A stretch of 20,578 bases of DNA from a virus. Positions 1 to 18,361 of the stretch are shown one piece after another. How positions within the stretch are numbered: the stretch's first letter is position 1; each line of letters starts with the position of its first letter. Below the pieces are notes generated by a model. It had not been told where the DNA came from. It ran no database searches and saw nothing but the letters and a program-made list of their open reading frames with translations. Where the stretch lies: positions 1 to 20,578 of the IMG/VR virus record IMGVR_UViG_3300033816_000162; one strand, 5' to 3'. Made by a program: the position numbers and the translations under genes.

Positions 1-1303
1 CTTGAAAATTAGCTAGATGGAATGTCGTATTACTTGTATCAATATACACATTGGCATCAGGTTCTGGAAGATAATTGTCAAAGACCTTCCAAATCCCATC
101 GCTGGCGTCGCGGAATATACCAGTATGAGCGTATCCTCCGCTGTTATAATTACCAGCAACACCTATGTCTGGATTGGTAACATCATTATTAGAATTAAGA
201 TATATCATATTATCAGAGACTGACAGATTATTGGCGCCGATAATATTGACGTTTCCAGAAACGACTAGGTTTCCAGTTAGCGTCATGCCAACAAACTCTA
301 CTGAATCTGATGTTCTGACATTCTGGTTCATTCTATATGGAAGTCTAGCTTCTGCTACTGTGCCTGAAGAAATATTAGAAGCATTAGAAGAATAAGAAGT
401 AGCATTCGAATAAGCAGCAGAAGCATTAGCTGTTATAGCAGCATTGGCCGTTGCTATTTTAGAATCTGTATAAGAAGTAGCATTAGTGTATGCAGCAGAA
501 GCGTTAGAAACTATAGCAGAGTTAGCAGTAGCTATCTTTGAGTCTGTGTAACTGACTGAATTAGAATACGCATTAGCAATAGCTAGATTGGCTGTACCAA
601 TCTTAGAATCAGTATATGATACTGCATTCGAATAAGCTGCTCCTGCAAATATAGCCATTGTGACATTAGCAGCGCCAATCGAACTGTCAGTATAACTTAC
701 TGCATTAGAATAAGCGTTAGCGATCGCTAAATTGGCAGTAGCAATTTTCGAGTCAGTATAGCTGACTGCATTAGAATATGCTGCTGAAGCATTAGCGGCG
801 ATAGCGGCGTTGGCAGTTTCTATAGAACTGTTAATATATGATACTGCGTTAGTATACGCTGCAGAAGCATTAGCAACTATAGCAGCATTAGCCGTGAATA
901 TCTTGGTATCAGTATATGTTACAGAGTTAGAATAGGCTGCTGCAGCATTAGCAACCATTGCAGCGTTAGCAGTTTCTATAGAACTACTGATATATGAAAC
1001 TGTATTAGAATAGGAGTTGGCTATATCTGATCTAATGACAACTAAATTAGCTTGAAGGTCTGTATTAGAAACAACGTCATTGGCCGTTACTGACCCAACA
1101 TAAAGAGTGTTATTTGCTGTGCCTGGATATGAAGTGTTGTTCATAGACTGGCCAGAAATAGTAATACCATTACTATGAATGGAAGTATTACCTACAGTTA
1201 TTCCGCTAGTATGGATAACAGTGTTACCAACGCTAACGCTTTCTGCAGCTGTATTGACTGTTACAACTTGACCAAGTTCGCCAATTTCTCTATTCTGAGC
1301 CAT
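1..1303 (-). CDS. Long tail fibre protein, N-terminal 434 codons (runs off left edge)
   Basis: An open frame reads from the ATG at 1303 to the left edge with no stop, so the 3' part is missing. A Shine-Dalgarno-like AAAGG lies about 9 bases before the ATG. The protein begins MAQNREIGELGQ, then has short VGN-type beta segments (about residues 20-50), a GTANNTLYVGS block (about 61-71), a stalk of 26/22-residue repeats (96-310), and a module containing EARLPYRMNQNV and HTGIFRDASDG (about 315-434). From about residue 61 onward it is a clear paralogue of the 1654-residue fibre just upstream; the last 121 residues differ at about 18 positions by hand count. Its first 60 residues differ and lack that fibre's Mtd-like N-terminus, which suggests another attachment point or partner. 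The role as a virion fibre that contacts the host is inferred from these modules. Whether it also ends in an S74 chaperone cannot be seen. Confidence 0.88.
   Translation of the reverse strand, partial: MAQNREIGELGQVVTVNTAAESVSVGNTVIHTSGITVGNTSIHSNGITISGQSMNNTSYPGTANNTLYVGSVTANDVVSNTDLQANLVVIRSDIANSYSNTVSYISSSIETANAAMVANAAAAYSNSVTYTDTKIFTANAAIVANASAAYTNAVSYINSSIETANAAIAANASAAYSNAVSYTDSKIATANLAIANAYSNAVSYTDSSIGAANVTMAIFAGAAYSNAVSYTDSKIGTANLAIANAYSNSVSYTDSKIATANSAIVSNASAAYTNATSYTDSKIATANAAITANASAAYSNATSYSSNASNISSGTVAEARLPYRMNQNVRTSDSVEFVGMTLTGNLVVSGNVNIIGANNLSVSDNMIYLNSNNDVTNPDIGVAGNYNSGGYAHTGIFRDASDGIWKVFDNYLPEPDANVYIDTSNTTFHLANFQ
374..1018 (-). repeat. 26/22-residue stalk repeat array, truncated fibre
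   Basis: Residues 96-310 are eight in-frame repeats plus a 15-residue remnant, with unit lengths 26, 26, 26, 22, 26, 22, 26, 26 and 15, which sum exactly to 215. The core of a unit is AYSNAVSYTDSKIATAN followed by a small-residue tail. The 22-residue units lack four residues at the tail and are followed by NAYSN instead of AAYSN. The composition is Ala/Ser/Asn/Thr-rich with regularly spaced Tyr and Ile. A trimeric helical stalk is an inference. Confidence 0.9.
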
Positions 1304-1326
1304 TTTTTGCCTTTATTATTTGTTTT

Positions 1327-4300
1327 TTAACTATTTATCAGTTTTTTCAAATCGCTCATTTCTTGTTTCATAGTCTCAATCATTTCTTGCTGTTCTTTAA
1401 TCGCTTGTATCAAAAGCGGCACCATTCTTTCATACTGAATAGTTAGATAGTTTTCGCCGCTTCTGGATGTATCCATCTTTTCATCTAATTCTTCATCGGT
1501 GTAATCTTTACCTGGATCAGGCTTCCATCTATCAAATGGTGCCAATGTAACAACATGAGGAAGAACGGCCTCAACTTCTTGGGCGATACATCCAATATCA
1601 TCATATTTTCTTTCAGGAACGAAACCATTTTCCTCTGATATGTCATTCCAGTCAAATGTAACACCTCTAATCGCCTTGATTTTCTCAATAGCGTTAGGAA
1701 TTTCTTTGATGTTTTCTTTCAAACGACGGTCAGAAGCATATGCAATAATGTTATAGGCGGCAGTAATATTACCACCCCAATCGACATTATTATTAGTCAG
1801 ATTGACAGTCATAGGCCACCAACCAGAACCGACGGTGGACCATCCTTCGTTTAGATTGTTGTGTCTTAAAATGTATAATAAATTACTATTATTGTGTAGC
1901 GTAGCACACTGTTGATCCGTGTCTTCGAATCTAAATGTTGGTGCACCACCTCTTAAAAACATGTCGTTGCCATGACAACGTAACGTCGAGAATGATGAAT
2001 AACCATTAGGATTTACATAATATCCGGTGTCATTAATGTCATACATAGCCTCAACATAAGATAGATAACCATAGTAGCTACCATCAACTCTTAGATTGAT
2101 ACTATAATCCCCACCATTAGATCCTGGATAACCATGGATTCTAAATTCACCTTGTCCGCCTTGATCGGTGGTGTTATAAACTGTGATGGAAGGATATCCG
2201 CCCCATGATCTGTCAAGTTTTGCTCTCCAATGAATGATTTCTGCGTTATAAAGAACAGATGTTGAATTAGGATCAACATAATATCCGGTATCATTTCTAT
2301 CATATAAAATAGGTGTTCTGATACTACCAGCAATATAGACATTATAATCGTTCTGGAACCACATAACATTACCATAGTTACGACTATATGCAACATGCGG
2401 ATTAGGGTCTGTGCCGGCAGAATAACCAAAACCTAGTGACACTGCATCGGTACCCATAGTACCAATAATCCATTGTTTAAAGTTGCCGCTAGTAGCGTCG
2501 GCAGTATCATATGCAGCCAATCTAAGAGCAGGGCCGTGATTTGTGTTATTGATACCAGATGACATAATATCAATTTTAGGATAACGACCTTTAATAGCTA
2601 TACCAGGTCTGTGATCGGCATCTCCATCAAAAATACAACCATCATAACTCTGATAACCAATAAGTTGACGCCATCTTGTTCTGTGTTCATACACAAAAGA
2701 AACATCGTTTGGATTTACATAATAAGCAGTATTGTTTAAGTCATAGAAGATAGGTGATCTAACATCAGTGTCACCGAAAAGATTTCCTGAACATCTCAAT
2801 TCTGATCCTGCACCATGATATAACGCAACAGAAGAATATCCTGCCCTATGAAATGCTATACCCACATTACCGGCATTGCTGTTTCTTATTTCAAGTTGAG
2901 AGTTATTCCAAGCGATGGCGCCAGAAAGATTTGAGCCGATACAATGTGAACTTGATCTTCCTAGTCCACCCGCTTCAATTGTCGCCAGAATAGATATGCT
3001 TGCAGGATCAACATAGTAAGCAGTATTATCCGAATCATAGAAGATTGGCGAACGCATTGACCCATGAGCCAGAGAATAGTTTCCAGTATATACAACAAAT
3101 CTATCTGCACCATTAGACTTAATAATATAATTATTGTTGCCTGCATAAGTTAGAACTGGGCCAGATGTGTGCCACATAAATCCAACTTCTGTAGAACCTA
3201 GTTCTGTGCCATACTGCGCTGTAACTTTAAGCTGCTGCGGCGTAGAAATATTTCCATACGTAGTTATGTTTCTTGTTTCGCCTGCAATTTCAAACATACT
3301 TCTGGTGTTTGGATAATCATATACAGCGAAATTTTTATACGTTCCAGCAGCGCCGCCCCAACTTAAACCAAGTAGAGCATATGAAGAACCTGTATATGCG
3401 TCACAAGTATTAAATAGTAATCTGGAACCAAGTCTAATATTACCAGCAGATATTATAGAATCGCTAGTAGAAGTCAGATCAGCATAGAAACTGGTGTTAT
3501 CAGCATCATAAAATACTGGCCCTCTCCATGAACCATTTGTATAACCTACACCAGCACTATTGAAATAGAATGGCCCAGACAAAGAAGTCGAACCAGTGTT
3601 TGCATAAAGAAATAATATGTCATTGGTCGTAGTTGAACCTAGTTTGATAGAAGAAGAAGGAACAGTATTACTGACAACAGCCCAACCACTATTATAATAA
3701 ATGTTATGAGAAAGATGCGTATCAGAACTTAATAACGTTCCATATTCACCAAATCTTAATGTATGGTTTGCTGTTGTACCAACTCTTGCTGCTCCTGCGA
3801 CATCTAGTTTATATGATGGAGAAGTGGTGCCAATACCAACATTACCATCATGTTTTAGGAACATCAAATCTCTATAAGTTGAGGCGCTCAACTGCTGTAT
3901 AAATCTTATTCCAGTCGATGTATAAGTGGAAGGATTGTATGTATTCCATAGATCTACTTCCGCCAAACCATTAGAAAAATTGGTAGCAACAGCAAATCCA
4001 TAATTGTTGAAAGATGGATATGTTCCACCAGAACCTGAATTGAACGCACCAAGATACCCATAACCGCCAGTTTGGATAAATGTATCATTTACGCTCAACG
4101 CCTTTACAACAGAAGTACCATCTGGATCCAAATAATAAGAAAGGTTATTAATGTCATAGAATCTAGAAGCATATGCGCCAGAATTGTTAGCAACAAACCA
4201 GTTAGATGTTGTGTTGCCTAGGAATAGTGTATTTGCTTGGAAGTTTGCTATATGGAATGATGTATTTGTAGTATCAATCCAAACATTAGCATCAGGTTCT

Positions 4301-6291
4301 GGAGCATAATTGTCGAACACCTTCCAGATACCATCACTAGCATCTCGGAAAATACCTGTGTGAGCATAACCACCACTATTGTAGTTACCAGCGATACCTA
4401 GATCTGGATTCGTTACAGTGCTGTTAGCGTTTAAGTAGATCATATTATCTACTAGGGATAGGTTATTAGCACCTATGATATTAACGTTACCAGAAACTAC
4501 TAGGTTTCCAGTAAGAGTCATTCCATTGAATTGTACTGTATCTGTGTTACGAACGTTTTGATTCATACGGTATGGTAATCTAGCTTCTGCTAGTGTACCA
4601 GTATTAACATTTGAAGCATTAGAAGCAAATACTGTTGCGTTCGTATATGCCGCTGAAGCATTGGCAATCATTGCTGTATTTGCAGTTCCTATTTTCGTAT
4701 CAGTATAGGTTACTGAGTTACTATAAGCCGCAGCCGCATTAGCGACCATTGCTGAGTTAGCTATTCCAATCTTAGTATCTGTATATGTTACAGAGTTAGA
4801 ATATGCACCTGACGCATTAGCAACTATCGCAGAGTTAGCTGTTGATATTTTAGAATCTGTATAAGAAGTAGCATTAGAGTAAGCTGCACCTGCATTCGCA
4901 ACTATCGCAGAGTTAGCAGTAGCAATTTTAGAATCTGTATAACTGACTGCATTAGAATACGCAGCAGATACATTAGCAGCCATTTCAGAATTAGCAGTAG
5001 CAATTTTAGAATCTGTATAACTGACTGCATTAGAATAAGCATTAGCAATTGCTAGGTTAGCAGTAGCAATTTTTGTATCAGTATAACTTACTGCATTAGA
5101 ATAAGCTGCTGATGCATTTGATGTTATAGAAGAATTGGCAATTCCTATTTGAGCGTCAGTATATGAAACAGCATTAGAATAAGCATTAGCAATTGCTAGG
5201 TTAGCAGTAGCAATTTTCGTATCTGTATATGAAACAGAATTACTGTATGCAGCAGAAGCGTTAGCAACTATAGCAGAGTTAGCTGTTGCTATTTTAGAGT
5301 CAGTGTATGAGGTGGCATTAGAATATGCTGCATCAGCGTTCGCTACCATAGCAAGATTAGCAGTTCCTATAGCAAAACTAGTATAATTAACAGAATTAGA
5401 ATATGAATTTGCTATATCAGAACGTATGACTGTTAGGTTAGCTTGCAAGCTCGTATTTGAAACAACGTCATTAGAAGCAACTGACCCAACATAAAGAGTA
5501 TTGTTCGCTGTTCCGCTAAACGACGAAGTGTTAATGGTCGCACCAGCAATACTAATAGTAGTAGAATCAATGGTAATATTGCTTGATGTATTACCAATGA
5601 CTAGTGTAGAACCGTTTAAATATACGTTTCCTGGAACAATCTGAGTGTTAACAGAAGAATTACCGATTGATATTACATTACCAGAGATACTAGTATTACC
5701 AATTGTCAGATAAGAAGTTGATGTGATAACAGAATAACCAACAACGTCAATCAAAGCACCGTTTGCAGGAGCAGGAGAAATAACAACGTTGACTCCAGAC
5801 TGAACATTGGCCTCAAGACCGTTATGAAGCATAACACCATTCAAGAATACTGAAACAGTATTAGATTCGTAACCACCAGATATAGCAAATGTTGTTGTGT
5901 TTCCGTCGCCAGTAAATTGTTGTCTCACTGGACCTGTGGCGCTACCACCAGCTGGCGCCCAATAAACCCCAGAACCGTTTGAAGTAAGAACCAGTCCTGC
6001 TGCGCCGTTGCTGCTGTTGGCACTAATAGCGCCGAATATAGCTACATCATGAAATACAGCAACATTCTGAAATAATGCTGTGTCTGTTACATTGATGTTT
6101 GATGTTGTGATATTATTTGATACTTGGAGATCTGTTAGATTGGCGCCAATCTCAAATACTAGCGAACCGTCTGACGAGAATAGCTTTTTATCGGTAAGGT
6201 TGATTGCTAATTCGCCGATTGCGACAGTAGATGTATTTGGGACTTTACCTGCGACTGATGATCGACGCAGTTTGAAAACTGTATTTGCCAT
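1327..6291 (-). CDS. Long tail fibre with C-terminal peptidase S74 chaperone, 1654 residues
   Basis: A giant fibre protein. In order: an N-terminal segment like the Mtd/receptor-attachment N domain (about 1-50, KLRRSSVAGKVP then GELAINLTDKKLF); a beta module with FTGDGNTTTF and VFLNGVML (about 120-185); VGN-type beta repeats (about 190-270); a 26/22-residue repeat stalk (295-561); a module with HTGIFRDASDG (about 590-685); six copies of a YD-x-x-N/D-T-x-Y-Y-x-D/N-P motif (about 711-1430); a GNVGIGTTSPSYKLDVAG segment (about 811-830); and a C-terminal S74 domain (about 1517-1654). The S74 domain folds and trimerises such fibres, then cuts itself off. The ATG at 6291 follows AGGAG by about 10 bases. 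The stop lies 23 bases before the next fibre ATG. Probably a receptor-contacting side or long tail fibre; the target is unknown. Confidence 0.93.
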   Translation of the reverse strand: MANTVFKLRRSSVAGKVPNTSTVAIGELAINLTDKKLFSSDGSLVFEIGANLTDLQVSNNITTSNINVTDTALFQNVAVFHDVAIFGAISANSSNGAAGLVLTSNGSGVYWAPAGGSATGPVRQQFTGDGNTTTFAISGGYESNTVSVFLNGVMLHNGLEANVQSGVNVVISPAPANGALIDVVGYSVITSTSYLTIGNTSISGNVISIGNSSVNTQIVPGNVYLNGSTLVIGNTSSNITIDSTTISIAGATINTSSFSGTANNTLYVGSVASNDVVSNTSLQANLTVIRSDIANSYSNSVNYTSFAIGTANLAMVANADAAYSNATSYTDSKIATANSAIVANASAAYSNSVSYTDTKIATANLAIANAYSNAVSYTDAQIGIANSSITSNASAAYSNAVSYTDTKIATANLAIANAYSNAVSYTDSKIATANSEMAANVSAAYSNAVSYTDSKIATANSAIVANAGAAYSNATSYTDSKISTANSAIVANASGAYSNSVTYTDTKIGIANSAMVANAAAAYSNSVTYTDTKIGTANTAMIANASAAYTNATVFASNASNVNTGTLAEARLPYRMNQNVRNTDTVQFNGMTLTGNLVVSGNVNIIGANNLSLVDNMIYLNANSTVTNPDLGIAGNYNSGGYAHTGIFRDASDGIWKVFDNYAPEPDANVWIDTTNTSFHIANFQANTLFLGNTTSNWFVANNSGAYASRFYDINNLSYYLDPDGTSVVKALSVNDTFIQTGGYGYLGAFNSGSGGTYPSFNNYGFAVATNFSNGLAEVDLWNTYNPSTYTSTGIRFIQQLSASTYRDLMFLKHDGNVGIGTTSPSYKLDVAGAARVGTTANHTLRFGEYGTLLSSDTHLSHNIYYNSGWAVVSNTVPSSSIKLGSTTTNDILFLYANTGSTSLSGPFYFNSAGVGYTNGSWRGPVFYDADNTSFYADLTSTSDSIISAGNIRLGSRLLFNTCDAYTGSSYALLGLSWGGAAGTYKNFAVYDYPNTRSMFEIAGETRNITTYGNISTPQQLKVTAQYGTELGSTEVGFMWHTSGPVLTYAGNNNYIIKSNGADRFVVYTGNYSLAHGSMRSPIFYDSDNTAYYVDPASISILATIEAGGLGRSSSHCIGSNLSGAIAWNNSQLEIRNSNAGNVGIAFHRAGYSSVALYHGAGSELRCSGNLFGDTDVRSPIFYDLNNTAYYVNPNDVSFVYEHRTRWRQLIGYQSYDGCIFDGDADHRPGIAIKGRYPKIDIMSSGINNTNHGPALRLAAYDTADATSGNFKQWIIGTMGTDAVSLGFGYSAGTDPNPHVAYSRNYGNVMWFQNDYNVYIAGSIRTPILYDRNDTGYYVDPNSTSVLYNAEIIHWRAKLDRSWGGYPSITVYNTTDQGGQGEFRIHGYPGSNGGDYSINLRVDGSYYGYLSYVEAMYDINDTGYYVNPNGYSSFSTLRCHGNDMFLRGGAPTFRFEDTDQQCATLHNNSNLLYILRHNNLNEGWSTVGSGWWPMTVNLTNNNVDWGGNITAAYNIIAYASDRRLKENIKEIPNAIEKIKAIRGVTFDWNDISEENGFVPERKYDDIGCIAQEVEAVLPHVVTLAPFDRWKPDPGKDYTDEELDEKMDTSRSGENYLTIQYERMVPLLIQAIKEQQEMIETMKQEMSDLKKLINS
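1330..1743 (-). other. Peptidase S74 intramolecular chaperone domain with self-cleavage site
   Basis: The last ~138 residues of the 1654-residue fibre carry the family hallmarks: ASDRRLKENI at the start, then IGCIAQEVEAVLP and YERMVPLLIQAIKEQQ, ending in a helical coiled-coil tail. In characterised members (phage K1F endosialidase) cleavage is just before the Ser of S-D-x-R-x-K, using that Ser and the Lys five residues later. Here these are Ser1520 and Lys1525, both present, so an active cut between Ala1519 and Ser1520 is predicted. It would release a 135-residue chaperone from a mature fibre of 1519 residues. Confidence 0.88.
1332..1339 (-). promoter_or_regulatory. Probable T4-type late promoter (GATAAATA)
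   Basis: Minus-strand GATAAATA matches the T4 late promoter TATAAATA at seven of eight positions. It lies inside the last codons of the 1654-residue fibre gene, and its final A is 29 bases from the A of the downstream ATG. The two exact copies before other fibre genes sit at 28 and 30. That matching spacing is the main reason to believe it despite the changed first base. Confidence 0.55.
2005..4158 (-). repeat. Six dispersed YD..NTxYYxDP motifs in the fibre shaft
   Basis: Within the 1654-residue fibre the short motif F/L/M-Y-D-x-x-N/D-T/L-x-Y/F-Y-x-D/N-P/L recurs six times, starting near residues 711, 924, 1080, 1179, 1325 and 1414. Examples are FYDSDNTAYYVDP, LYDRNDTGYYVDP and MYDINDTGYYVNP. 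Spacing is irregular (roughly 90 to 210 residues), so each motif probably marks the junction between folded shaft domains rather than a strict tandem repeat. Similar motifs are common in S74-ending fibres; their exact role is not established from sequence. Confidence 0.8.
4609..5409 (-). repeat. 26/22-residue stalk repeat array, complete fibre
   Basis: Residues 295-561 form ten repeats plus a 15-residue remnant. Unit lengths are 26, 26, 22, 26, 22, 26, 26, 26, 26, 26 and 15, summing exactly to 267. The core is AYSNxVSYTDSKIATANSAI with a VANAS-type tail. Units 3 and 5 lack four tail residues. Neighbouring units are similar in protein but vary at synonymous positions, so the array is not freshly amplified. 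Confidence 0.92.
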
Positions 6292-6308
6292 TCTAGGCTC
6301 TCCTATAA

Positions 6309-6324
6309 CTCAGTATATACTGAG
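6309..6324. repeat. Perfect 16-bp palindrome CTCAGTATATACTGAG
   Basis: A perfect inverted repeat occupies nearly half of the 36-base gap between the coiled-coil gene and the 1654-residue fibre gene, 17 bases upstream of the fibre ATG. As RNA it could form a 6-bp stem with an AUAU loop just before the ribosome binding site AGGAG. No T-run follows on the minus strand, so it does not look like an intrinsic terminator. It could be a protein-binding operator, a translation-modulating hairpin or chance. Confidence 0.6.
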
Positions 6325-6327
6325 ATA

Positions 6328-6918
6328 TTAAAATTCATCTGGCAATGTTGCCGGAGGTTCTTTCTTTTTTGCCTTTTTTGAATCATCGCCTTTCAGCTTT
6401 TGATTCTCGGTGTATAAATTATTTAGTTCTTCGACTTGATGCTGGTATTCTGTTTTTAATTCTTCGGATCTAGAATTACATAGTTTTAATTCATCTTCTA
6501 ATTGTTTAATACGGATACCAGCTTCATTTAATTTCAACTGATTCTCGCCTTGAGCTTCTTTAATAATTCTCTCTTTTTGAGAATTAATCTCTTGATTTTT
6601 TTGTTGAAGAGCAGTATAATTACTTTGTAGCGATGAAATATCAGTTTTAGATGCTTCTAACTGACGAGTAATACGATCATTCTCAGCTGTCAGCGTTTCG
6701 ATGCTAGCAGCTGCTTGATTCAGTAATTCGTTACCAAGAGCTACTTGCTTCTGAGATTCCTCATAGCGAGCATTAGCTTCATTGATATTGTTGTTGAGAG
6801 CTACTATACGTACTTCTGCGTCGATGTTCTTACGCAAGAAATCCAGAAGCAATTGTTCTTGCTTCTGGATGTAATGTAGTGTATAGAGGTTTTGTTGGTC
6901 GTTTTTCTCTTCTTCCAT
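6328..6918 (-). CDS. Coiled-coil virion-region protein, 196 residues, function unknown
   Basis: A nearly continuous alpha-helical coiled coil from about residue 10 to 175, rich in Glu, Gln, Lys and Leu, with segments such as KQEQLLLDFLRKN and IRIKQLEDELKL. A lysine-rich patch (DDSKKAKKKE) and a short Pro-containing tail ending TLPDEF follow. There is no signal peptide or membrane segment. It starts at ATG 6918, 9 bases after GAGG, and lies 17 bases after the preceding fibre gene. Its place between two fibre genes suggests a fibre assembly factor, a rod-like connector or a structural whisker, but no family with known function is recognised. Similar coiled-coil proteins seem to occur in other T4-superfamily fibre loci; that is recalled, not tested. 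Confidence 0.85.
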   Translation of the reverse strand: MEEEKNDQQNLYTLHYIQKQEQLLLDFLRKNIDAEVRIVALNNNINEANARYEESQKQVALGNELLNQAAASIETLTAENDRITRQLEASKTDISSLQSNYTALQQKNQEINSQKERIIKEAQGENQLKLNEAGIRIKQLEDELKLCNSRSEELKTEYQHQVEELNNLYTENQKLKGDDSKKAKKKEPPATLPDEF

Positions 6919-6935
6919 AATATATCCTCAGATAA

Positions 6936-8780
6936 TTAGAAGCTACCTCCATCTAGATAATCGTATACTAGATGACTTCCGTTTGATTGAAGAACAAATC
7001 CACTAGTTCCAAGAGACAATCTATTATAGCCGTTCGAAGAGTTACCAACTAGCAATGCTTGATTGATAGTCGTCTTATAACCAGTACCACCCTCTGTTCC
7101 TGCGAGAGCAGTAGATAGAGCTAATGTATTAGCAACAATATTAACATTACAAGTTGAGTTTGCAGTAACTGTTAATGTAGTATTGTTAGATACAATAGCA
7201 CCAGACTCTAGGAAAGTCTGTAGAATTGCTAGGGTATAACCGTTAGCAGCTGTATTAACAACGTTGTTACCTGATAGCTCTTGTTGTGAACCTGTAAAGA
7301 GCTTATATATACCACCATCAGAAGCGTCACGGAACAGACCAGTGTGTAGGTTTGTGTTAGCTGCAATATCATGATAGTTAGCAGCGAAACCGATGTCTAA
7401 TAGATCGCTGGAATAGTTGTTACCAGCAAGATAGATCATTGGATCAGAAACGATAACAGATGATACGTTAGTTGTTACCAGGTTACCAGAGACGATAATA
7501 TCGCCAGCAATTTCAACGCTACCATCGAAGTAACCAGATGTAGAATGGATGTTAGCAGCGTGAATTTCTCTCCATCTTAGGCTGTTAGAACCTAAATCAT
7601 AGGCTGTATTAGCAGATGGATTTACGTTGCCTGTTACGCGAGCAGTAACATGGATTTCGTCTGAAGTGCTGTTACCTAGAGTGGTGTTACCCTGGACGAT
7701 GACATTCAAGAATTCTGCAGTTGCAGATGTAGCGTCAACGTTTGAACCAGAGAATACAACCTTTGTAGAATTGGCAGTAAAATCTGTACCAACGCTAAGA
7801 ATAGAAGCATTAACTGCGCCAACGGCGAACAAACCATAAGAGTTGGCTACAAGATCAGTACCAACAGTGTGGGCAAAGGCATTAACAATACCTGCAGCAA
7901 ACACACCACTGTTGTTAGCGGTTGTAAGTCCATTAATAACAATACCACCTGAAGTAATATTGGTATTAACTGTGTTGTTGCCTACGAAGAAAGTAGTGGT
8001 ATTCTGTACTGTGCCGCCGCCACCAGTTCCAATAGAACCAGCGTCAAAGGCTGTGGCGTTAACAATACCAGTTACATAAGCGCCAGAAGAATTTACTGCT
8101 AGGCCATTAGATTGTAGTCTTGTAGAGTTTGCTACAACTACTGAACCTACGCTTAATGTAGAAGCGTTAACTGTTCCAGTTGCGAAAACTCCCAAAGAGT
8201 TAGCAACAACATCTGTACCAATGCTTACGATGGCTGCATTAACTGTACCAGCCGGAGTCCACAGACCAGTAGAATTGGCGACTAATAGGGATCCAACAGT
8301 ATGAGAAGCAGCGTTTACTGTTGTGGCATTGACTGTTGTTGTGAATACAGTGTTGTCAATGAAAAGGTTATTGCTGACTTTATTGAATGTGAAACCAGCT
8401 GTGGCGTTTGCAACGCCTGAATCATTGAACTGGATTTGAGTGTTAGCGCCAGAAGTACCTGTTCCCCAATAGATGGCCGAACCATTGGTAACAAGAACTT
8501 GACCATTCGAACCCGGAGATCCATTGGCAGTAAGCATTTTGACGATAGCATTATCTACGATAACTGTATCAATACCGCCAGAAGTGTTAGCTACAAGGGC
8601 ATGGTTATTGGTCAGAATGCCTGGATATTGAGCGCCACCAATTCGTAGTACGCCAGAGCCGTCAGGAAGGCCGATATGAAGGGTGTTACTAGCTTGGGTG
8701 AACGCCAATTCACCATTTGAAAGACCGCTAACTGTAGCGTTAGCTACCGATCTTTTGATCTGAATTCTGTTATTGGCCAT
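6936..8780 (-). CDS. Beta-repeat tail fibre protein, 614 residues
   Basis: N-terminus MANNRIQIKRSVANATVSGL then GELAFTQASNTLHIG resembles the Mtd-type attachment domain also seen in the 1654-residue fibre. Next come NGQVLVTNGSAIYWG (about 90-110), a run of 24-25-residue beta repeats (about 154-345) broken by a GTGGGG hinge, a TAYDLGSNSLRWREI motif (about 390-405), and a module with MIYLAGNN and HTGLFRDASDG (about 450-490) related to one in the two left fibres. It ends in YLDGGSF. It lacks an S74 chaperone, so folding may need a separate factor. An exact late promoter and AAAGGAG precede the ATG at 8780. It is likely a trimeric fibre or fibre segment, inferred from module content; its receptor is unknown. 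Confidence 0.9.
   Translation of the reverse strand: MANNRIQIKRSVANATVSGLSNGELAFTQASNTLHIGLPDGSGVLRIGGAQYPGILTNNHALVANTSGGIDTVIVDNAIVKMLTANGSPGSNGQVLVTNGSAIYWGTGTSGANTQIQFNDSGVANATAGFTFNKVSNNLFIDNTVFTTTVNATTVNAASHTVGSLLVANSTGLWTPAGTVNAAIVSIGTDVVANSLGVFATGTVNASTLSVGSVVVANSTRLQSNGLAVNSSGAYVTGIVNATAFDAGSIGTGGGGTVQNTTTFFVGNNTVNTNITSGGIVINGLTTANNSGVFAAGIVNAFAHTVGTDLVANSYGLFAVGAVNASILSVGTDFTANSTKVVFSGSNVDATSATAEFLNVIVQGNTTLGNSTSDEIHVTARVTGNVNPSANTAYDLGSNSLRWREIHAANIHSTSGYFDGSVEIAGDIIVSGNLVTTNVSSVIVSDPMIYLAGNNYSSDLLDIGFAANYHDIAANTNLHTGLFRDASDGGIYKLFTGSQQELSGNNVVNTAANGYTLAILQTFLESGAIVSNNTTLTVTANSTCNVNIVANTLALSTALAGTEGGTGYKTTINQALLVGNSSNGYNRLSLGTSGFVLQSNGSHLVYDYLDGGSF
7746..8321 (-). repeat. 24-25-residue VNA...VG...VANS repeat array
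   Basis: In the 614-residue fibre about six units share the pattern T/I-V-N-A-x4-V/I-G-x3-V-A-N-S-x-G-L. Examples are TVNAAIVSIGTDVVANS and TVNASTLSVGSVVVANS. One unit carries an extra stretch, and one is interrupted by a glycine-rich GTGGGG segment near residue 240. The alternation of short hydrophobic strands and Asn/Gly turns suggests a triple beta-helix shaft (inference). Confidence 0.8.
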
Positions 8781-8809
8781 GTAGATAGCGCTCCTTTGAA
8801 TTTTTTATA

Positions 8810-8817
8810 TATTTATA
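8810..8817 (-). promoter_or_regulatory. T4-type late promoter TATAAATA
   Basis: An exact match to the T4 late promoter on the minus strand, placed two bases after the stop codon of the 89-residue gene and 30 bases (last A to A of ATG) before the 614-residue fibre gene. In T4 such sites are read by host core polymerase carrying gp55 and gp33 with the gp45 clamp. It would allow the fibre gene to be transcribed separately from the upstream genes. Confidence 0.8.
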
Positions 8818-8820
8818 AAA

Positions 8821-9090
8821 TTAGAAAACTCCACCATCTAAGTCGCCATCTATATTAACAAAATTCAAATGTTTAACTTGATAAGTATCTGTACTATCGT
8901 CATAAATTAATGTAGAACCGTCTGATCTTTGAGTCAGACCTACATCTCTTAATTCATCTATTGTGTCTAGCCCACTCGATAAAACTGGAGCATTCTTTAG
9001 GGTCACAGGAACTGTTGTGTCGATAACGCCACCAGTAGCGTTTGATGATACTTTGACGTTTCTTTTTCTCGAAACAACAACATTTACCAT
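8821..9090 (-). CDS. Small virion-region protein, 89 residues, DGGVF C-terminus
   Basis: A short basic N-terminus (MVNVVVSRKRNVKVSS) is followed by beta-rich sequence and a C-terminal VKHLNFVNIDGDLDGGVF. No enzymatic motif, signal peptide or membrane helix is seen. The ATG at 9090 lies three bases after the stop of the 110-residue gene, so translation is probably coupled; a GAGA about 8 bases upstream is a modest ribosome site. The last residues (LDGGVF) resemble the end of the next fibre (LDGGSF), hinting at a shared docking or packing end. Similar small proteins with this tail appear to be common beside fibre genes in marine myoviruses (recall, not tested). Function unknown; a structural adaptor is the best guess. 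Confidence 0.8.
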   Translation of the reverse strand: MVNVVVSRKRNVKVSSNATGGVIDTTVPVTLKNAPVLSSGLDTIDELRDVGLTQRSDGSTLIYDDSTDTYQVKHLNFVNIDGDLDGGVF

Positions 9091-9093
9091 GTA

Positions 9094-9426
9094 TTATCTC
9101 GTTACCTGTGGGGTTACTGTTACAATGCCTTCAACAACCCTAGAAACTGCATTCGAAGATGTGTCTGTCAGTTCAACATCATAAACATATCTTCCAGCTG
9201 TCAAAGCGCCAGTCTGATTTGCTGACAAAGTTAGAGATATCTGTCCAGAATATGCATTAACAGAAGTGCTAAAAGTTGTAGCATTGGTAGAAGTGTACCA
9301 TTTTCTCATCTGTGCGTTCGCAGAAAACCCAACCAAGTTAAGGGCATCTCCATTGTCATCTGTGAGGTCAAGCTCCACTGAAAAAGTGGAACCTTGATCT
9401 ATTATGAGATTAGCTTTCGTTGCCAT
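9094..9426 (-). CDS. Conserved small beta-sandwich virion protein, 110 residues
   Basis: The order KANLIIDQGSTFSVELDLTD, AQMRKWYTS, GRYVYDVELTD and VVEGIVTVTPQVTR matches a widespread small phage protein, similar in pattern to the N-terminal beta-sandwich of baseplate upper (BppU-like) proteins. It probably sits in the baseplate or fibre junction. Its ATG shares one base with the stop of the 744-residue fibre (TAATG), and no strong ribosome site is seen, so expression is likely by translational coupling. The family pattern is recognised with moderate confidence. The exact structural place is inferred from its position between two fibre genes. Confidence 0.85.
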   Translation of the reverse strand: MATKANLIIDQGSTFSVELDLTDDNGDALNLVGFSANAQMRKWYTSTNATTFSTSVNAYSGQISLTLSANQTGALTAGRYVYDVELTDTSSNAVSRVVEGIVTVTPQVTR

Positions 9427-11660
9427 TAGGAAGACTGAACCTTTGTAAATCTTACTGTTGACGAAGAAACCGAAGGAGTAAAGTAAAGGTATCCAACCCC
9501 GCCACTTACATCAGTAGTAAATGAGCCTAAATTACCAATTTGAGCGTATTCAGAAGAATTAATCGCTGTAGAATTGGTTGACACTAGAATCTTTGTAGCC
9601 ATTCTGTTACCAGAGCTATCTGCAACATGGATCACATAATCATATGCATAAGTTCCAAGAGCTACGCTATCGATTGACTGCTGGCCTGTGCCTGAAGTAA
9701 CAACAACGTTGTTTGACACTGGAATTATTGGCAGAGCAGTCCATAAACCATTAGCGTTTAGATAAGTGTTACCGTGGTTTCTCTGAGTAATATTTGGCGG
9801 AGAAACAGTAATAAATGAAGTTGTTGAATTGTTACCAATGGTAACACTAGTGTTGACAGTAAGAGCCTGGTATAATGTAGCGTTATTAGACAGAGTAAGC
9901 GTAGAACCGTTAATTCTCCATCTATTATTAACTGTACCTAGTTGATAAAGATCGTTCGACGAAGGAATAATATCACCAATAGCATTACCAGTGTATGTGA
10001 TATTACCGTTAACAGTAACGTCCCCGTTAACAACCAGAGTTCCTTTGACATTTACGTATGTACCAGCTGCTTGAGAAACACCAAACACAACGTTACCATA
10101 AACGTCCATATTGGCGTTTGAAGAAATAGCGGTAGCATTAATTTGAGTGCTGAACGAACTGTTAGCGTAGGCATAGAAAGCAGTAGAATTGATGCTGGTA
10201 TTAACACCAGCCTTACCGCTGTTAAATGTATTAGCCCATATAGTTCCGTTTGCCTCTAATCTATATGCAGGCGAAGTAGTTCCAACACCTACATTACCGT
10301 TGGCAAGAACACGAACACGCTCGACGTTGGTAGTAAACAACATAAATGGAGTTGTGTCAACAGTACCAATAGAACCAAGTGCTGCTCCGCCATATGCAGG
10401 ATTAATTCTTAGTTCTGAAGTTGTGCCTGTTCCACGTAGTCTGACTTGAGGAACAGATGACTGTATGTCAATAGCCACAGTTGGTGCAATACCACCAATA
10501 CCAATATGACCGTTAGAAGCTACTCTGAAGAATTCTGTTGATGTGTTACCAACATATAATGGATTTCCTGTTCTTGCAGCGAAATAACCAGCCCAAGAAG
10601 TGTTAGATAAACCATATACGCCATAGAAATTTTCTGAATCGCCAAAGGCTCCAACGCCGCTTATAGATCTACCATAAACGCCAGGGGCAGAATTAGATCT
10701 ACCAGACACACCAATATTAGAATTCGATTCACCGTAAATAGTGACATTATTATTAGAATAAGCCGTAATGGCCAAAACAGGAGAAACTATAGAACCAACA
10801 ACAATGGCTGTGGTATTAACAGTAACATTACCAGTAGTAATAATTGTACTGTTGACAAACGAATTACCAATTCTAAGATTGTCTGATGTAAGATTTGCTA
10901 CGCTACTAGAATTGGCAAGAGAGATTAATACAGAATTAATCTTAACATTAGCTGTTGGGCTTCTTACGTCGACGAATGTAGAATTCGAAAGTATGTTTGA
11001 TGTAGAAGTATAACCAGTAACAATAGTTGTATCATTAGCAAACGTATTAGAACCAATACGGATAGAAGTTGTATTGGCTGTGAAACCTGTAGATATGTCA
11101 TTGGCTGTGGTTATAATAGTGCTATTAACAACGCTATTACCAACCCACAAAGTATCGTAAGAAAGAATCGCTGAAATAGCGTCTTTGGTAATCAATACAC
11201 CATTAGAATTAAATGTGGAGTTAACAGTATCGTTTGCCTTGAAATACATATAGCTCTTATTCAAGACAGTGTTAGCAGAACTATCGCCTATGAATATCTG
11301 TGATGTATTAACAACGACATTAGAACCAACCAACACAGAGTAAGTCTTCATAGTGCTGGTGTTGACAGTAGAATTAGAAGTCTGGTTACCTACGTGGATA
11401 TGGGTTGTGTTTACGTATGCAGCGTTGGCGTCAGGATTACTGAAATTACCGACAACTACATAAGTTCCTACGTTCGCATTATAGGCAGAATTCAGAACAT
11501 TAGCGCTGAAAATGCCAGTAATACCAGCATTACCAACAGCAGCATTAGAGCCATTGGCCGTAACAGCATATACCGACATTGCATAAGCAAGTTCGTTAGT
11601 TCTGTTTAGCCAGTAAGCAAAGTTTTGATTATTACTGGTATTTGCGATAAGAACTGTCAT
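9426..11660 (-). CDS. Tail fibre protein, 744 residues
   Basis: The N-terminus has FAYWLNRTNELAYAMS (about 14-29), typical of phage fibre attachment ends. Residues about 80-305 are VGN/NST beta repeats. Residues 307-356 are five 10-residue GVYGxS-type repeats. Two strand-turn motifs follow: NGHIGIGGIAPTVAIDI (about 380-400) and NGNVGVGTTSPAYRLEANG (about 450-470). Next comes DLYQLGTVNNRWRINGSTL (about 570-590), then a C-terminal domain of about 130 residues ending RFTKVQSS, which may be the tip. No S74 chaperone is present. The ATG at 11660 follows two stops (TAATAA) ending the 71-residue gene, with AAGAGA as a weak ribosome site. It is very likely a structural fibre; the receptor is unknown. 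Confidence 0.9.
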   Translation of the reverse strand: MTVLIANTSNNQNFAYWLNRTNELAYAMSVYAVTANGSNAAVGNAGITGIFSANVLNSAYNANVGTYVVVGNFSNPDANAAYVNTTHIHVGNQTSNSTVNTSTMKTYSVLVGSNVVVNTSQIFIGDSSANTVLNKSYMYFKANDTVNSTFNSNGVLITKDAISAILSYDTLWVGNSVVNSTIITTANDISTGFTANTTSIRIGSNTFANDTTIVTGYTSTSNILSNSTFVDVRSPTANVKINSVLISLANSSSVANLTSDNLRIGNSFVNSTIITTGNVTVNTTAIVVGSIVSPVLAITAYSNNNVTIYGESNSNIGVSGRSNSAPGVYGRSISGVGAFGDSENFYGVYGLSNTSWAGYFAARTGNPLYVGNTSTEFFRVASNGHIGIGGIAPTVAIDIQSSVPQVRLRGTGTTSELRINPAYGGAALGSIGTVDTTPFMLFTTNVERVRVLANGNVGVGTTSPAYRLEANGTIWANTFNSGKAGVNTSINSTAFYAYANSSFSTQINATAISSNANMDVYGNVVFGVSQAAGTYVNVKGTLVVNGDVTVNGNITYTGNAIGDIIPSSNDLYQLGTVNNRWRINGSTLTLSNNATLYQALTVNTSVTIGNNSTTSFITVSPPNITQRNHGNTYLNANGLWTALPIIPVSNNVVVTSGTGQQSIDSVALGTYAYDYVIHVADSSGNRMATKILVSTNSTAINSSEYAQIGNLGSFTTDVSGGVGYLYFTPSVSSSTVRFTKVQSS
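10593..10742 (-). repeat. Five tandem decapeptide G-V-Y-G-x-S repeats
   Basis: Residues 307-356 of the 744-residue fibre are five consecutive 10-residue units: TIYGESNSNI, GVSGRSNSAP, GVYGRSISGV, GAFGDSENFY and GVYGLSNTSW, followed by the partial unit AGYFA. The period is exact. Such GVYG-x-S arrays recur in bacterial surface and phage fibre proteins and are likely beta-structured. Confidence 0.88.
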
Positions 11661-14623: not shown

Positions 14624-14631
14624 TATTTATA
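14624..14631 (-). promoter_or_regulatory. T4-type late promoter TATAAATA overlapping a stop codon
   Basis: Exact minus-strand TATAAATA; its TAA at 14629-14627 is the stop codon of the DUF4815 gene. The last A is 28 bases from the first base of the TTG start of the 904-residue gene. Consensus match, placement and spacing all agree with a late promoter for that gene and those after it. Confidence 0.8.
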
Positions 14632-17600
14632 AACCTCTTAAGAGAGTTGTCAATAAGTCTACGCCGCCATTCCAACCAGCTTGCACGAGAAGATCGTTTA
14701 CAGATGGAGGATTGGCAACAGGCTGAACAGCAGCAGGTCTATCGCTGACAAGATTTCCTCTGAAGTCATATACTTTGTTTCTAACTTCTCCAGTAAGAAT
14801 AGTCTCAACCTCAGTAGAAGTTGTAGTTCTCCAATCGCCCCATGTAACGCCGAATGGGCTAGAAGCGAATTCTTTCCATGGAGCAGCTGAATCAATATAG
14901 ATTTCTGCAGAACCAGTTTTACCTTCATTAACGCCATTATCGTATGTCGGAATAAGAGTAAGATGACCATTCCAAGCATAAGCAACCAAAGCTGAAGATC
15001 TATACTTTGTAGCATATTGCTGAACCAAGAAAGGAACTTCAGTATAGTTTAGTGTAATAAGTCTGCCTGTCTTGACAACATTAGAAGAAGCAGTGCTACT
15101 GAAATTGATAGTGATAGTTTCTCTAACAATTTTTGGTCTAGCGACGCCCTTCGAAGAATCAATTGCTATACTGAATTCTGGATTAGAAATATCGCAAAGA
15201 GAAAAAGAAGTCATAGGATCAACGAAAATACCATTCTTGAATCTATCAAGACCGTTTTCGTCAGTAACTGTTAAGTCTTTTGCCTTTTTCTCTAGCAATG
15301 ACAACTGAGTGTAATATTCTAGATTTGTAACTCTCTGATCAATAGAACCTATGTCTTTCATAGTATATCTTCTATTAGTCAAAGAAGAACCAGATATTGA
15401 AAGAGAAGTGTCTCTTATAAGGTTTATGGCGCTCTGGTTGATAGTCAAGAAGTCATCGACCTGCTCAGAAGATAGAGAAGGATATGGAGGTATATTGAGA
15501 GTAGCCAATGGCATAGCATTCTCTGGGAATAGAGGAGATTGTGGTGTAATGCTAGGCACACCCTCCTTTACCTTGAGAACATTGTCAGGGGTGATCATAA
15601 CCAGATCTTTTCTACCCAGATAGAAAGTATAATCTGCCTCTAGAGATTTACCATAAGCAGGAGAATTCATTCCTGTGATTGGAACATCAAACGATAGAGT
15701 GCTTGATGGATTCAACGTAGCATATGAAATTGCAGTATTAGTTTGAGCTCCGTTAGACCAATCGTAAAAACCGCTGTCGTTAGCAGTATTAATACATGGA
15801 ACTCTGAAGTCCACATAATCTCTTAGTGGTAATTTGGCTCCAGTGTCATCAACATAAAGAGGAATATCTTTTGTCTGAATGGCGGTAACACTAGCAGTAT
15901 TAGCGTCGTCAACAGGATAAGATTCGACTGTAAAATAACCAACTCCTGGCGATGTATTAACAGCAAAATAATCTAAGTCCACCAAAACATTTGGGAAAGA
16001 AGTAGCTGTATAACCAGGTTTAGCGTAAATATATGCTAAGTTATAATGAGTATCTTTTTGGCCTGTGTCAAGAGAGAAATTACTTGTTAGATCGACACCA
16101 TTAACAGTATAAACGCCATTAGCAGTTCCGTAAATTTTATTGATCTTATGTACGTCTCCCAACCCAAGGCACCATGGACCTTTTGGGTTTGAAGAAGTGT
16201 TGATCTTAACAAATCTCTTCTTTCTGATTTCCTTTTTAGCAGGAACAGTAACAGTTCTTTTTACGATATAAGAAACGTCAACGTCCAAAGGAACTGATGG
16301 AATCTGCCCTGAATGAATTGTGAACCCTGTGCTAGTATCTATTGTTACATATGGAGAAGGACCAGTAATACCCTTTGTTGTGGAAATTACTTTACCATTC
16401 ACATATCTCTTATAACAGTTTGTTCCAGAATTAGAGTAAGCGAACGGAGCATCAACAACCATATAAGTGTTGTTTGCAACTGATACAATTGTTCTTACTG
16501 CGCCATCGACCTTTACCAAATCTCCAGATGTAAATATAGAAGTAAATACAGTAGAAGAACCTGTTACAATAGTAGAAGATGTGCTTACTGAAACTGACCC
16601 AGTTATAGCAGCTGAATCTGCATTAGTTTTAGAAACAACTATAATGTCAGCTGCAGCCGAATCTGTTAATGTTGTACCTGCAACGAATGGTAGAATATCA
16701 GTTCCGCCTGTAACTGAAGAAGCTATTCTTGTGTCAATGTTACCACTGGTGTCCATAATAGCAGTAGTATTACTTGCTCTGTAATAGTAATCTGTAACAA
16801 CATTGTTGTTCTGATCTCTAAGATTCTTAATACCAGTTACGCCAAAACTGAATAGTTGTTTTTTGTTCTGCGAAGATACAATACCAGTAGATACAACGTC
16901 AGCAATACCTTTGTTTGGACCAGTAAATACGATAGATTTTATCTGGCTTGGTGTGTAATTTCCAGACATACTAGTATTGAAAATGTGAATGTAATAATTA
17001 GCAGTAGATGTGCCGGGAGTGCCGGAAACTAATGTTACACATCTAATATTGGCTGTACCTATCAAATTACCAACCAAACCAGTTCCAGAATATGTTCTGT
17101 TGGTAACAGCTTTTTGTGGCTGGTCATAAAAATTGACGCTAGCTATCAAATCGGATCTGAATGATCCAGCGTATTCATTTACAATAAAATAATTGCCATA
17201 ATTGAAATTGATTTCTTGTGAACGGTTTGTCTGGGTATCAACGCCACGACGCATGTTGATATATGCAGTTTTTTGGATTTCTACTCTGTTACCCTGAACA
17301 TAACCGATACCTGTGCTGACACGCCCTAGAACGCTGTTAGCATCAGATGCGCTTACATCAGAACCTGGAATGGTTGTTACAGTATCAACAATAAAAGGGT
17401 TTACGACATAATTGCCAGATTCTTCGAATGTTCTTTTTGCTAGAACGTCACCAACAACAGAATAGACGTTTGCTGCTGGTAAAACTTTAGAAACCAAACT
17501 ACCATAATTATAAATTCCGATAGGATTGAATTTCTCTCTAAGGGATGCTTCTTCTGTAGTAAGAGAAATGATTATAGGAGTAAGTTTCAAACGATGAGCG

Positions 17601-18361
17601 CCAGGAGCGTTTTCGTTGGTATATCCAAGAGCGTTATCTAGAAGACTTGTATCTTGGTTTTCTGTAACAATCTGTTCAATAAGGTCAAATCCAATAACAT
17701 TATTACCAGCGTAAGTACCAAAATTGTTAACAAGGCCAAATGTAGAATTTGCTACTCTAACGAATTCGCCTCCAATGAAAACAACGCCTTCTGTTACGCT
17801 TACGCCGTGAGAATTACCTGTTGTTACAGTATCGATAGGAGTGTTAGACCAACTATAAACATTTGCTAGATCAGTATTACCTGCAACAGAAACTTGCTGG
17901 AAAGTCAACAATTCGTTGTTGGAGAATATAGTTTCCCCGCCTGTTCCAGTGTTGATGTACTTTAGATACAGAATGTTTGTGTCAGGATAATTGGTGCTGA
18001 ATCCTGCATTAGCGTAAATGACCTGAGCTTTTAGATTGCTTGTGGCGCTAGTGGCCACTGCATTAACATAATCTCTTACGTCTAGAGTGGCTGAGTTTGC
18101 TGTACCGTTCGATGCGAAATCCATAAGGCGAACATACGGAACCGAAGGCATGTCGAAAATCTGACAACCATAAACAATATCGCCGTTATTAAACGCCCAG
18201 TTACCAAATCTTTCGATCTGTTTCTGGATAATTGTCTGGATCTGTGTTAGTTCTCTTGCCTGAACTGCTGTACCAGGTCTAAAAAGGATTCGATAATAGT
18301 CTTTAAACTCATCATAATCGTCGAAATATGGAGCAACGTTGAAATCTGTCTTTAGAGCCAT
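14627..18361 (-). CDS. DUF4815-type virion structural protein, 1244 residues
   Basis: The N-terminus carries the DUF4815 signature: FNVAPYFDDYDEFKDYYRIL then FRPGTAVQARELTQIQTII and QIERFGNW (about 6-55). Residues about 587-650 hold a V-x-G-S-x-V-F beta module also found twice in the next gene. A conserved helical and beta core follows: RRYTMKDIGSIDQRVTNLE, then YYTQLSLLEKKA and GLDRFKNGIFVDPMTSF (about 995-1060). Near the C-terminus is FGVTWGDWRTTTSTEVETIL (about 1180-1200). These proteins are virion components of T4-superfamily and other large phages, encoded next to baseplate genes; the detailed role is not settled, but a baseplate-to-fibre connector is plausible. The ATG at 18361 follows TAAGG (9 bases) and the tandem stop TAATAA of the gp8 gene. 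The gene is intact. Confidence 0.92.
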   Translation of the reverse strand: MALKTDFNVAPYFDDYDEFKDYYRILFRPGTAVQARELTQIQTIIQKQIERFGNWAFNNGDIVYGCQIFDMPSVPYVRLMDFASNGTANSATLDVRDYVNAVATSATSNLKAQVIYANAGFSTNYPDTNILYLKYINTGTGGETIFSNNELLTFQQVSVAGNTDLANVYSWSNTPIDTVTTGNSHGVSVTEGVVFIGGEFVRVANSTFGLVNNFGTYAGNNVIGFDLIEQIVTENQDTSLLDNALGYTNENAPGAHRLKLTPIIISLTTEEASLREKFNPIGIYNYGSLVSKVLPAANVYSVVGDVLAKRTFEESGNYVVNPFIVDTVTTIPGSDVSASDANSVLGRVSTGIGYVQGNRVEIQKTAYINMRRGVDTQTNRSQEINFNYGNYFIVNEYAGSFRSDLIASVNFYDQPQKAVTNRTYSGTGLVGNLIGTANIRCVTLVSGTPGTSTANYYIHIFNTSMSGNYTPSQIKSIVFTGPNKGIADVVSTGIVSSQNKKQLFSFGVTGIKNLRDQNNNVVTDYYYRASNTTAIMDTSGNIDTRIASSVTGGTDILPFVAGTTLTDSAAADIIVVSKTNADSAAITGSVSVSTSSTIVTGSSTVFTSIFTSGDLVKVDGAVRTIVSVANNTYMVVDAPFAYSNSGTNCYKRYVNGKVISTTKGITGPSPYVTIDTSTGFTIHSGQIPSVPLDVDVSYIVKRTVTVPAKKEIRKKRFVKINTSSNPKGPWCLGLGDVHKINKIYGTANGVYTVNGVDLTSNFSLDTGQKDTHYNLAYIYAKPGYTATSFPNVLVDLDYFAVNTSPGVGYFTVESYPVDDANTASVTAIQTKDIPLYVDDTGAKLPLRDYVDFRVPCINTANDSGFYDWSNGAQTNTAISYATLNPSSTLSFDVPITGMNSPAYGKSLEADYTFYLGRKDLVMITPDNVLKVKEGVPSITPQSPLFPENAMPLATLNIPPYPSLSSEQVDDFLTINQSAINLIRDTSLSISGSSLTNRRYTMKDIGSIDQRVTNLEYYTQLSLLEKKAKDLTVTDENGLDRFKNGIFVDPMTSFSLCDISNPEFSIAIDSSKGVARPKIVRETITINFSSTASSNVVKTGRLITLNYTEVPFLVQQYATKYRSSALVAYAWNGHLTLIPTYDNGVNEGKTGSAEIYIDSAAPWKEFASSPFGVTWGDWRTTTSTEVETILTGEVRNKVYDFRGNLVSDRPAAVQPVANPPSVNDLLVQAGWNGGVDLLTTLLRGL

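Follow-up and report, generated by a model that had tools for sequence, protein, structure and literature searches.

Two neighboring paralogous tail fiber genes of an environmental T4-like phage keep their N-terminal mounts and differ in their distal parts from a near-identical relative

The tips of tail fibers determine which bacteria a phage binds. In the phages DT57C and DT571/2, the adjacent LtfA and LtfB genes share identical stretches, recombine, and end in self-cleaving chaperones; the C-terminal part of LtfA differs and sets host specificity, and LtfB is believed to attach to LtfA (PMC4728585). The locus described here resembles that system in its two adjacent fiber genes, its C-terminal chaperone (self-cleaving in the Ltf proteins), and its shared stretches between genes, which support recombination, as well as in the existence of near-identical phages with conserved N termini and diverged distal parts, a divergence that in LtfA switches host specificity. 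It differs in that DT57C and DT571/2 are T5-like siphoviruses with fibers of other families, and in that branching and host range were tested there (PMC4728585).

In pelagi- and cyanomyophages, a hypervariable fiber cluster sits downstream of VrlC (PMC7029224). Our phage is likewise T4-like, with a hypervariable fiber region directly downstream of VrlC, but those clusters vary in gene content as a whole, whereas parts of genes are exchanged here against a background of 0 mismatches in 11.3 kb (PMC7029224). The metaviromic islands of marine phages also include fiber C termini that vary between near-identical phages while the N termini stay constant; those are single fibers with T7-like N termini, whereas two paralogous fibers are changed here and the joins can be located (PMC3909814). 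A survey of fragment shuffling likewise singled out tail fibers as a hotspot in which domains have recently been mosaicized, a survey-level result to which we add one concrete locus (PMC10684548). Fiber cassette exchange is already well known (PMC3909814, PMC10684548), and what is notable here is that the joints are clean and that two neighboring paralogues are affected in a nearly clonal background.

A tandem fiber pair in a host recognition cluster

The window, by which we mean the whole stretch of DNA that was analyzed (20,578 nucleotides of IMG/VR record IMGVR_UViG_3300033816_000162), is the start of the host recognition cluster of a T4-like myophage, an environmental virus of bacteria. 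A baseplate wedge gene is followed by the VrlC/DUF4815 gene and then, further downstream, by structural genes and the fiber genes (Table 1). VrlC is only about 36% identical to its nearest named homologues (Caulobacter phage Cr30), and the phage is therefore distant from named phages. In relatives, a third S74 fiber of 640 aa and a 227-aa protein rich in glycine come after fibers A and B; the glycine-rich protein (L007:15094-15777) could be a tip adhesin.

Table 1. Features of the fiber pair and its surroundings, in window coordinates
Feature	Position	Strand	Basis or remark
Fiber A, 1654 aa	1327-6291	-	ORF; C terminus matches PHROGs for tail fiber and long-tail-fiber distal; Peptidase_S74 PF13884
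Mount A, residues 1-259: gp37-type N terminus (about 1-60), then beta-rich domain (about 118-190)	5515-6291	-	tblastn; Foldseek
Fiber A pre-stalk block (GTANNTLYVGS...NSYSN), common to B	5395-5514	-	36/40 aa identical to B
Fiber A stalk	4624-5394	-	Repeat analysis; unit spacings 26 and 22 aa only
Fiber A shared module, residues 557-685	4237-4623	-	108/129 identical to B; widespread module
Fiber A tip, patchwork segments separated by YD-N-T-YY-DP repeats	1753-4236	-	Segment comparison
Fiber A S74 intramolecular chaperone and C-terminal helix	1327-1752	-	PF13884 at residues 1520-1581, E 1e-16
Fiber B, first 434 aa, open at window edge	2-1303	-	ORF; L005-L008 carry the whole 1255-aa frame
Mount B, residues 1-60, MAQNREIGELGQ type	1124-1303	-	Homologues, each of them downstream of a mount A, in L036, L038, L039, L043, L050
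Fiber B pre-stalk block, common to A	1004-1123	-	Alignment to A
Fiber B stalk	389-1003	-	Repeat analysis
Fiber B shared module, residues 306-434	2-388	-	Alignment to A
Replaced cassette, fiber A: distal stalk, module, tip, most of S74 (vs L006/L033)	1399-5236	-	1 mismatch/2776 nt before boundary, about 30% after
Shared bridge, reaching from the last ~23 codons of A across the intergenic gap into the mount and initial stalk units of B	861-1398	-	4 mismatches/538 nt vs L033 (~99%)
Replaced cassette, fiber B: distal stalk and module, continuing past the window edge	1-860	-	Comparison with relative
Baseplate wedge gene	18375-19910		Family/homologue searches
VrlC/DUF4815 baseplate protein	14627-18361		DUF4815 match and VrlC-annotated homologues

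The initial annotation of this DNA had described tandem paralogous fibers that share, in the same order, a pre-stalk block, a repeat stalk, and a 121-residue module, and this description was borne out. BLASTP of fiber A against fiber B gives an E value of about 1e-157 across 443 columns, the block is identical at 36 of 40 residues, and the module differs at exactly 18 positions (103/121 identical, or 85%), as had been estimated by hand. An old divergence under purifying selection is likewise evident in the module, in which synonymous sites are close to saturation (pS 0.72 to 0.75) while dN is about 0.11, but the simple duplication history that had been attached to it does not hold (see below). 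The N termini do differ, as had been noted for the first ~60 residues, but the differing stretch spans 259 residues in A and 60 in B. Nor are the shafts nearly the same, since stalk length and unit order differ and both stalks are replaced in their distal part relative to a near-identical phage. Units of 26 or 22 residues number 11 in fiber A and 9 in fiber B of the window; in L006, all units of A are of 26 residues, while B combines units of 26 and 22 with one of 11. These unit lengths presumably fit a near-straight trimeric coiled coil built of hendecad and pentadecad repeats.

Fiber B begins 23 bp after the stop of fiber A, preceded by an AAAGG-like ribosome site, and runs off the window. 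Its full-length form was found as an intact 1255-aa frame in four other IMG/VR contigs (L005 to L008, mutually identical at 99.9%), with the matching fiber A in L006 to L008 and L005 starting inside the end of fiber A. With the same pair in four contigs and an intact fiber B there, neither a decaying left copy nor an assembly join of two copies, the two refuting outcomes that the initial annotation had allowed for, explains the pair.

Fiber A ends in a C-terminal Peptidase_S74 domain of the endosialidase/T5-Ltf type, and its C-terminal region matches a long tail fiber distal subunit in the PDB (6f45, E 1e-7). An SDRRLK motif lies in the S74 region, and autoproteolytic release is predicted. Fiber B of L006 likewise carries a C-terminal Peptidase_S74 (E 1e-14), beyond the point at which the window copy ends. 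The AlphaFold monomer of the shared module reached a pLDDT of 78 and had no match in the PDB, and a profile search of the PDB with the module gave chance-level matches only; since the module most likely folds as an interwoven trimer, little can be read from a monomer model.

Several further features of the neighborhood deserve mention. A 196-aa protein directly upstream of fiber A (6328-6918), without a family match and predicted by eye to form a coiled coil, has homologues in the same position before fiber A in several relatives (L009, L013, and L014) and is possibly a connector or a fiber assembly factor. The 614-aa protein (6936-8780) and the 89-aa protein (8821-9090) both have C termini of the DGG-F type (DGGSF and DGGVF); DGG[SNT][FY] also closes most homologues of the 614 type, and such a C terminus may serve for docking. 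Late-promoter-like TATAAATA sites were found three times on the coding (-) strand, each just upstream of a gene (8810-8817, 14624-14631, and 18431-18438); their number in the window is at chance level, and none lies between the 614-aa gene and fiber B.

Distal replacements in a near-clonal background

As a close relative for comparison we used a 66-kb contig (G001, comprising L033 and L113), which has 0 mismatches to the window at reverse-strand positions 1-11324 (11.3 kb). Beyond 11324, there are 2 mismatches in a 110-aa gene, 20 in the 614-aa gene, and 1 in the 196-aa gene, followed by 0 in the first 1055 bases of fiber A, mount A included. At 5236, which is codon 352 and lies within the stalk of fiber A, identity falls at once to about 70%, and the tip is partly unalignable. 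Identity resumes at 1398 (codon 1631 of 1654), in the tail of the S74 domain, and a second switch follows from 860 (codon 148 of fiber B), again in the stalk. Both fibers keep their mount and carry a different distal part, and for fiber B the visible change comprises stalk and module only. The bridge between the two cassettes is slightly more divergent than the backbone before fiber A (4/538 versus 1/2776 mismatches; Fisher p = 0.003) and may have a history of its own.

The 20 mismatches in the 614-aa gene are confined to 241 bases (8013-8253) and cause 5 amino acid changes, with the rest identical; here a further protein that bears the module has a small recombination patch of its own.

A metagenome assembly might have joined the backbone of one strain to the fiber segments of another, as stalk repeats are hard to assemble and the window allele occurs in one contig only, no other contig searched having a close copy (back-translated patterns of the fiber A tip gave a single weak match in IMG/VR and no close copy). 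Such a chimera would, however, require three joins (5236, 1398, and 860), each falling exactly in frame between divergent sequences, and the pair itself is present in four other contigs, so that we regard this explanation as very improbable. Diversity by inversion was also considered, and no inversion site or enzyme was noticed in the window.

A widespread module and patchwork tips

More than 100 frames in the fetched loci carry the module, which sits on a wide range of N termini and also in the 614-aa gene of the window and its family; in the tree, the fiber modules group together with support and are separated from most modules of the 614 type. The module is a widespread mobile fiber domain. 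Among fiber modules, a single clade of mount-A modules was rejected (AU p = 5.5e-7), while a single clade of mount-B modules was not (AU p 0.076). The tip of the window's fiber A has different best relatives among the fetched loci along its length: fiber B of L006 for residues 686-734 (71%), an L057 fiber for 735-830 (60%), a mount-B fiber of L050 for 800-930 (71%), fiber A of L006 for 1085-1330 (77% and 58%), and, for 1425-1654, an L018 fiber on yet another mount (52% and 66%). Together with the failure of mount-A modules to form one clade, these differing relatives point to patchwork evolution and not to a single duplication.

The history originally proposed, an old tandem duplication of one fiber gene with later replacement of one N terminus and no cassette traffic, would account for the common order of block, stalk, and module and for saturated synonymous sites alongside a low dN. 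We nevertheless consider it highly unlikely, since the module sits on many mounts and mount-A modules are not one clade, tip segments are related to fibers on other mounts, and the distal parts of both genes are replaced in a near-clonal background.

A further and rather doubtful idea is that the shared stalk and module might be a built-in recombination joint through which the second fiber would act as a tip reservoir for the first, so that either mount could be re-aimed within its own genome. The relationship of fiber A tip segments to mount-B fibers and the partial module similarity between the pairs of L038 and L025 are compatible with this idea; the modules of window fiber A and L006 fiber A are still near relatives of each other (dS about 0.8), which weighs against claiming direct A-to-B transfer within one genome.

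The L025 pair (L025:8888-14633) is a second tandem fiber pair with different N termini, whose modules are each other's nearest relatives and share 76% DNA identity across 744 bases.

Mounts and the arrangement of the two fibers

By tblastn, roughly a thousand phage records contain a T4-type gp37 whose N terminus matches the first ~50 residues of mount A. In Yersinia phage fHe-Yen9-01, the matching stretch of the annotated distal subunit starts at its residue 5 (E 3e-8), and in Acinetobacter phage PhT2 it lies near the start of the fiber gene that follows gp34-gp35-gp36. The Mtd-like N terminus that the initial annotation had recognized in fiber A gave way to this homology with the distal subunit of T4-type long tail fibers: mount A has no match in Pfam up to E 1, and Mtd appears in neither Pfam (to E 1), the PDB profile search, nor the Foldseek list. 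Fiber A thus carries a gp37-type N-terminal domain of about 50 residues and, as in gp37, an S74-type C terminus related to distal-subunit PHROG families; it differs in that no gp34, gp35, or gp36 is recognizable beside it (none of the window proteins searched matched such a PHROG) and in that its stalk, module, and most of its tip belong to other families. For residues 118-190 of mount A, a fold was predicted with fair confidence in a monomer model, and Foldseek returned phage tail-adaptor chains and N-terminal chains of fibers and tailspikes with a probability of 1.00 but E values of 2e-3 to 1e-2.

The gp37 likeness bears on whether the two proteins are proximal and distal parts of one long fiber, as the initial annotation had suggested for the pair, because the gp37 N terminus in T4 joins other fiber proteins and not the baseplate (PMC5537660). 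Against this, both complete proteins end in an S74 chaperone, which is typical of free tips, so that both are built as free-ended distal fibers and a single long fiber is extremely unlikely.

For mount B, named phages gave no match, and it does not resemble known virion attachment domains. N termini of its type occur downstream of mount A in six lineages (that of the window and L006, and L036, L038, L039, L043, and L050), and a third mount type (MS-TNDL-LANSANV) sometimes intervenes; in L036, L043, and L050, other fiber genes lie between A and B. The conserved co-occurrence and order in six lineages suggest that the two mounts may have separate, simultaneous jobs, and the order favors simultaneous over alternative use of the two fibers.

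We propose, with a probability of roughly 0.7, that the pair represents two receptor-binding fibers at fixed mounts with interchangeable stalk-tip cassettes, set in a T4-like host recognition cluster. As judged by homology, the two genes would encode two homotrimeric, receptor-binding tail fibers of a T4-like myophage, both on the virion at once. Each would have an N-terminal mount of its own that fixes its position there, followed by a coiled-coil stalk, a spacer module, and a variable tip, and would end in an S74 chaperone that is expected to fold the trimeric tip and then to cut itself off. The mounts would be stable, while stalk, module, tip, and chaperone would form interchangeable cassettes. 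With homologous recombination acting upstream in the stalk repeats and downstream in the conserved tail of the chaperone, the distal part could be swapped and attachment left undisturbed, with repeats and chaperone tail serving as joints that preserve frame and mount; a common stalk and module would let cassettes move between mounts and between phages.

Alternatively, the fiber could be branched, with B docking through its 60-residue N terminus on A or on another fiber, in the way assumed for LtfB on LtfA in DT57C and DT571/2 (PMC4728585). The N terminus of B is far shorter than that of A and lacks similarity to known virion attachment domains, the two genes are adjacent (23 bp from stop to start), mount B follows mount A in six lineages, the parallel with DT57C is close (PMC4728585), and the Foldseek matches of mount A include TSP4 of CBA120, a protein known to belong to a branched complex of tailspikes. 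These matches are weak, however, and include unbranched fibers, no docking partner was identified, and other fiber genes intervene between A and B in L036, L043, and L050. Overall, we judge a branched arrangement unlikely, though well worth keeping in mind.

At this locus, what has been changed as a unit is directly visible: the same mounts and backbone carry a new stalk and tip in fiber A and a new stalk and module in fiber B. The locus also locates the joints of natural fiber swaps, in the stalk repeats and in the chaperone tail, and it offers a place where exchange between two fibers of one genome can be tested.
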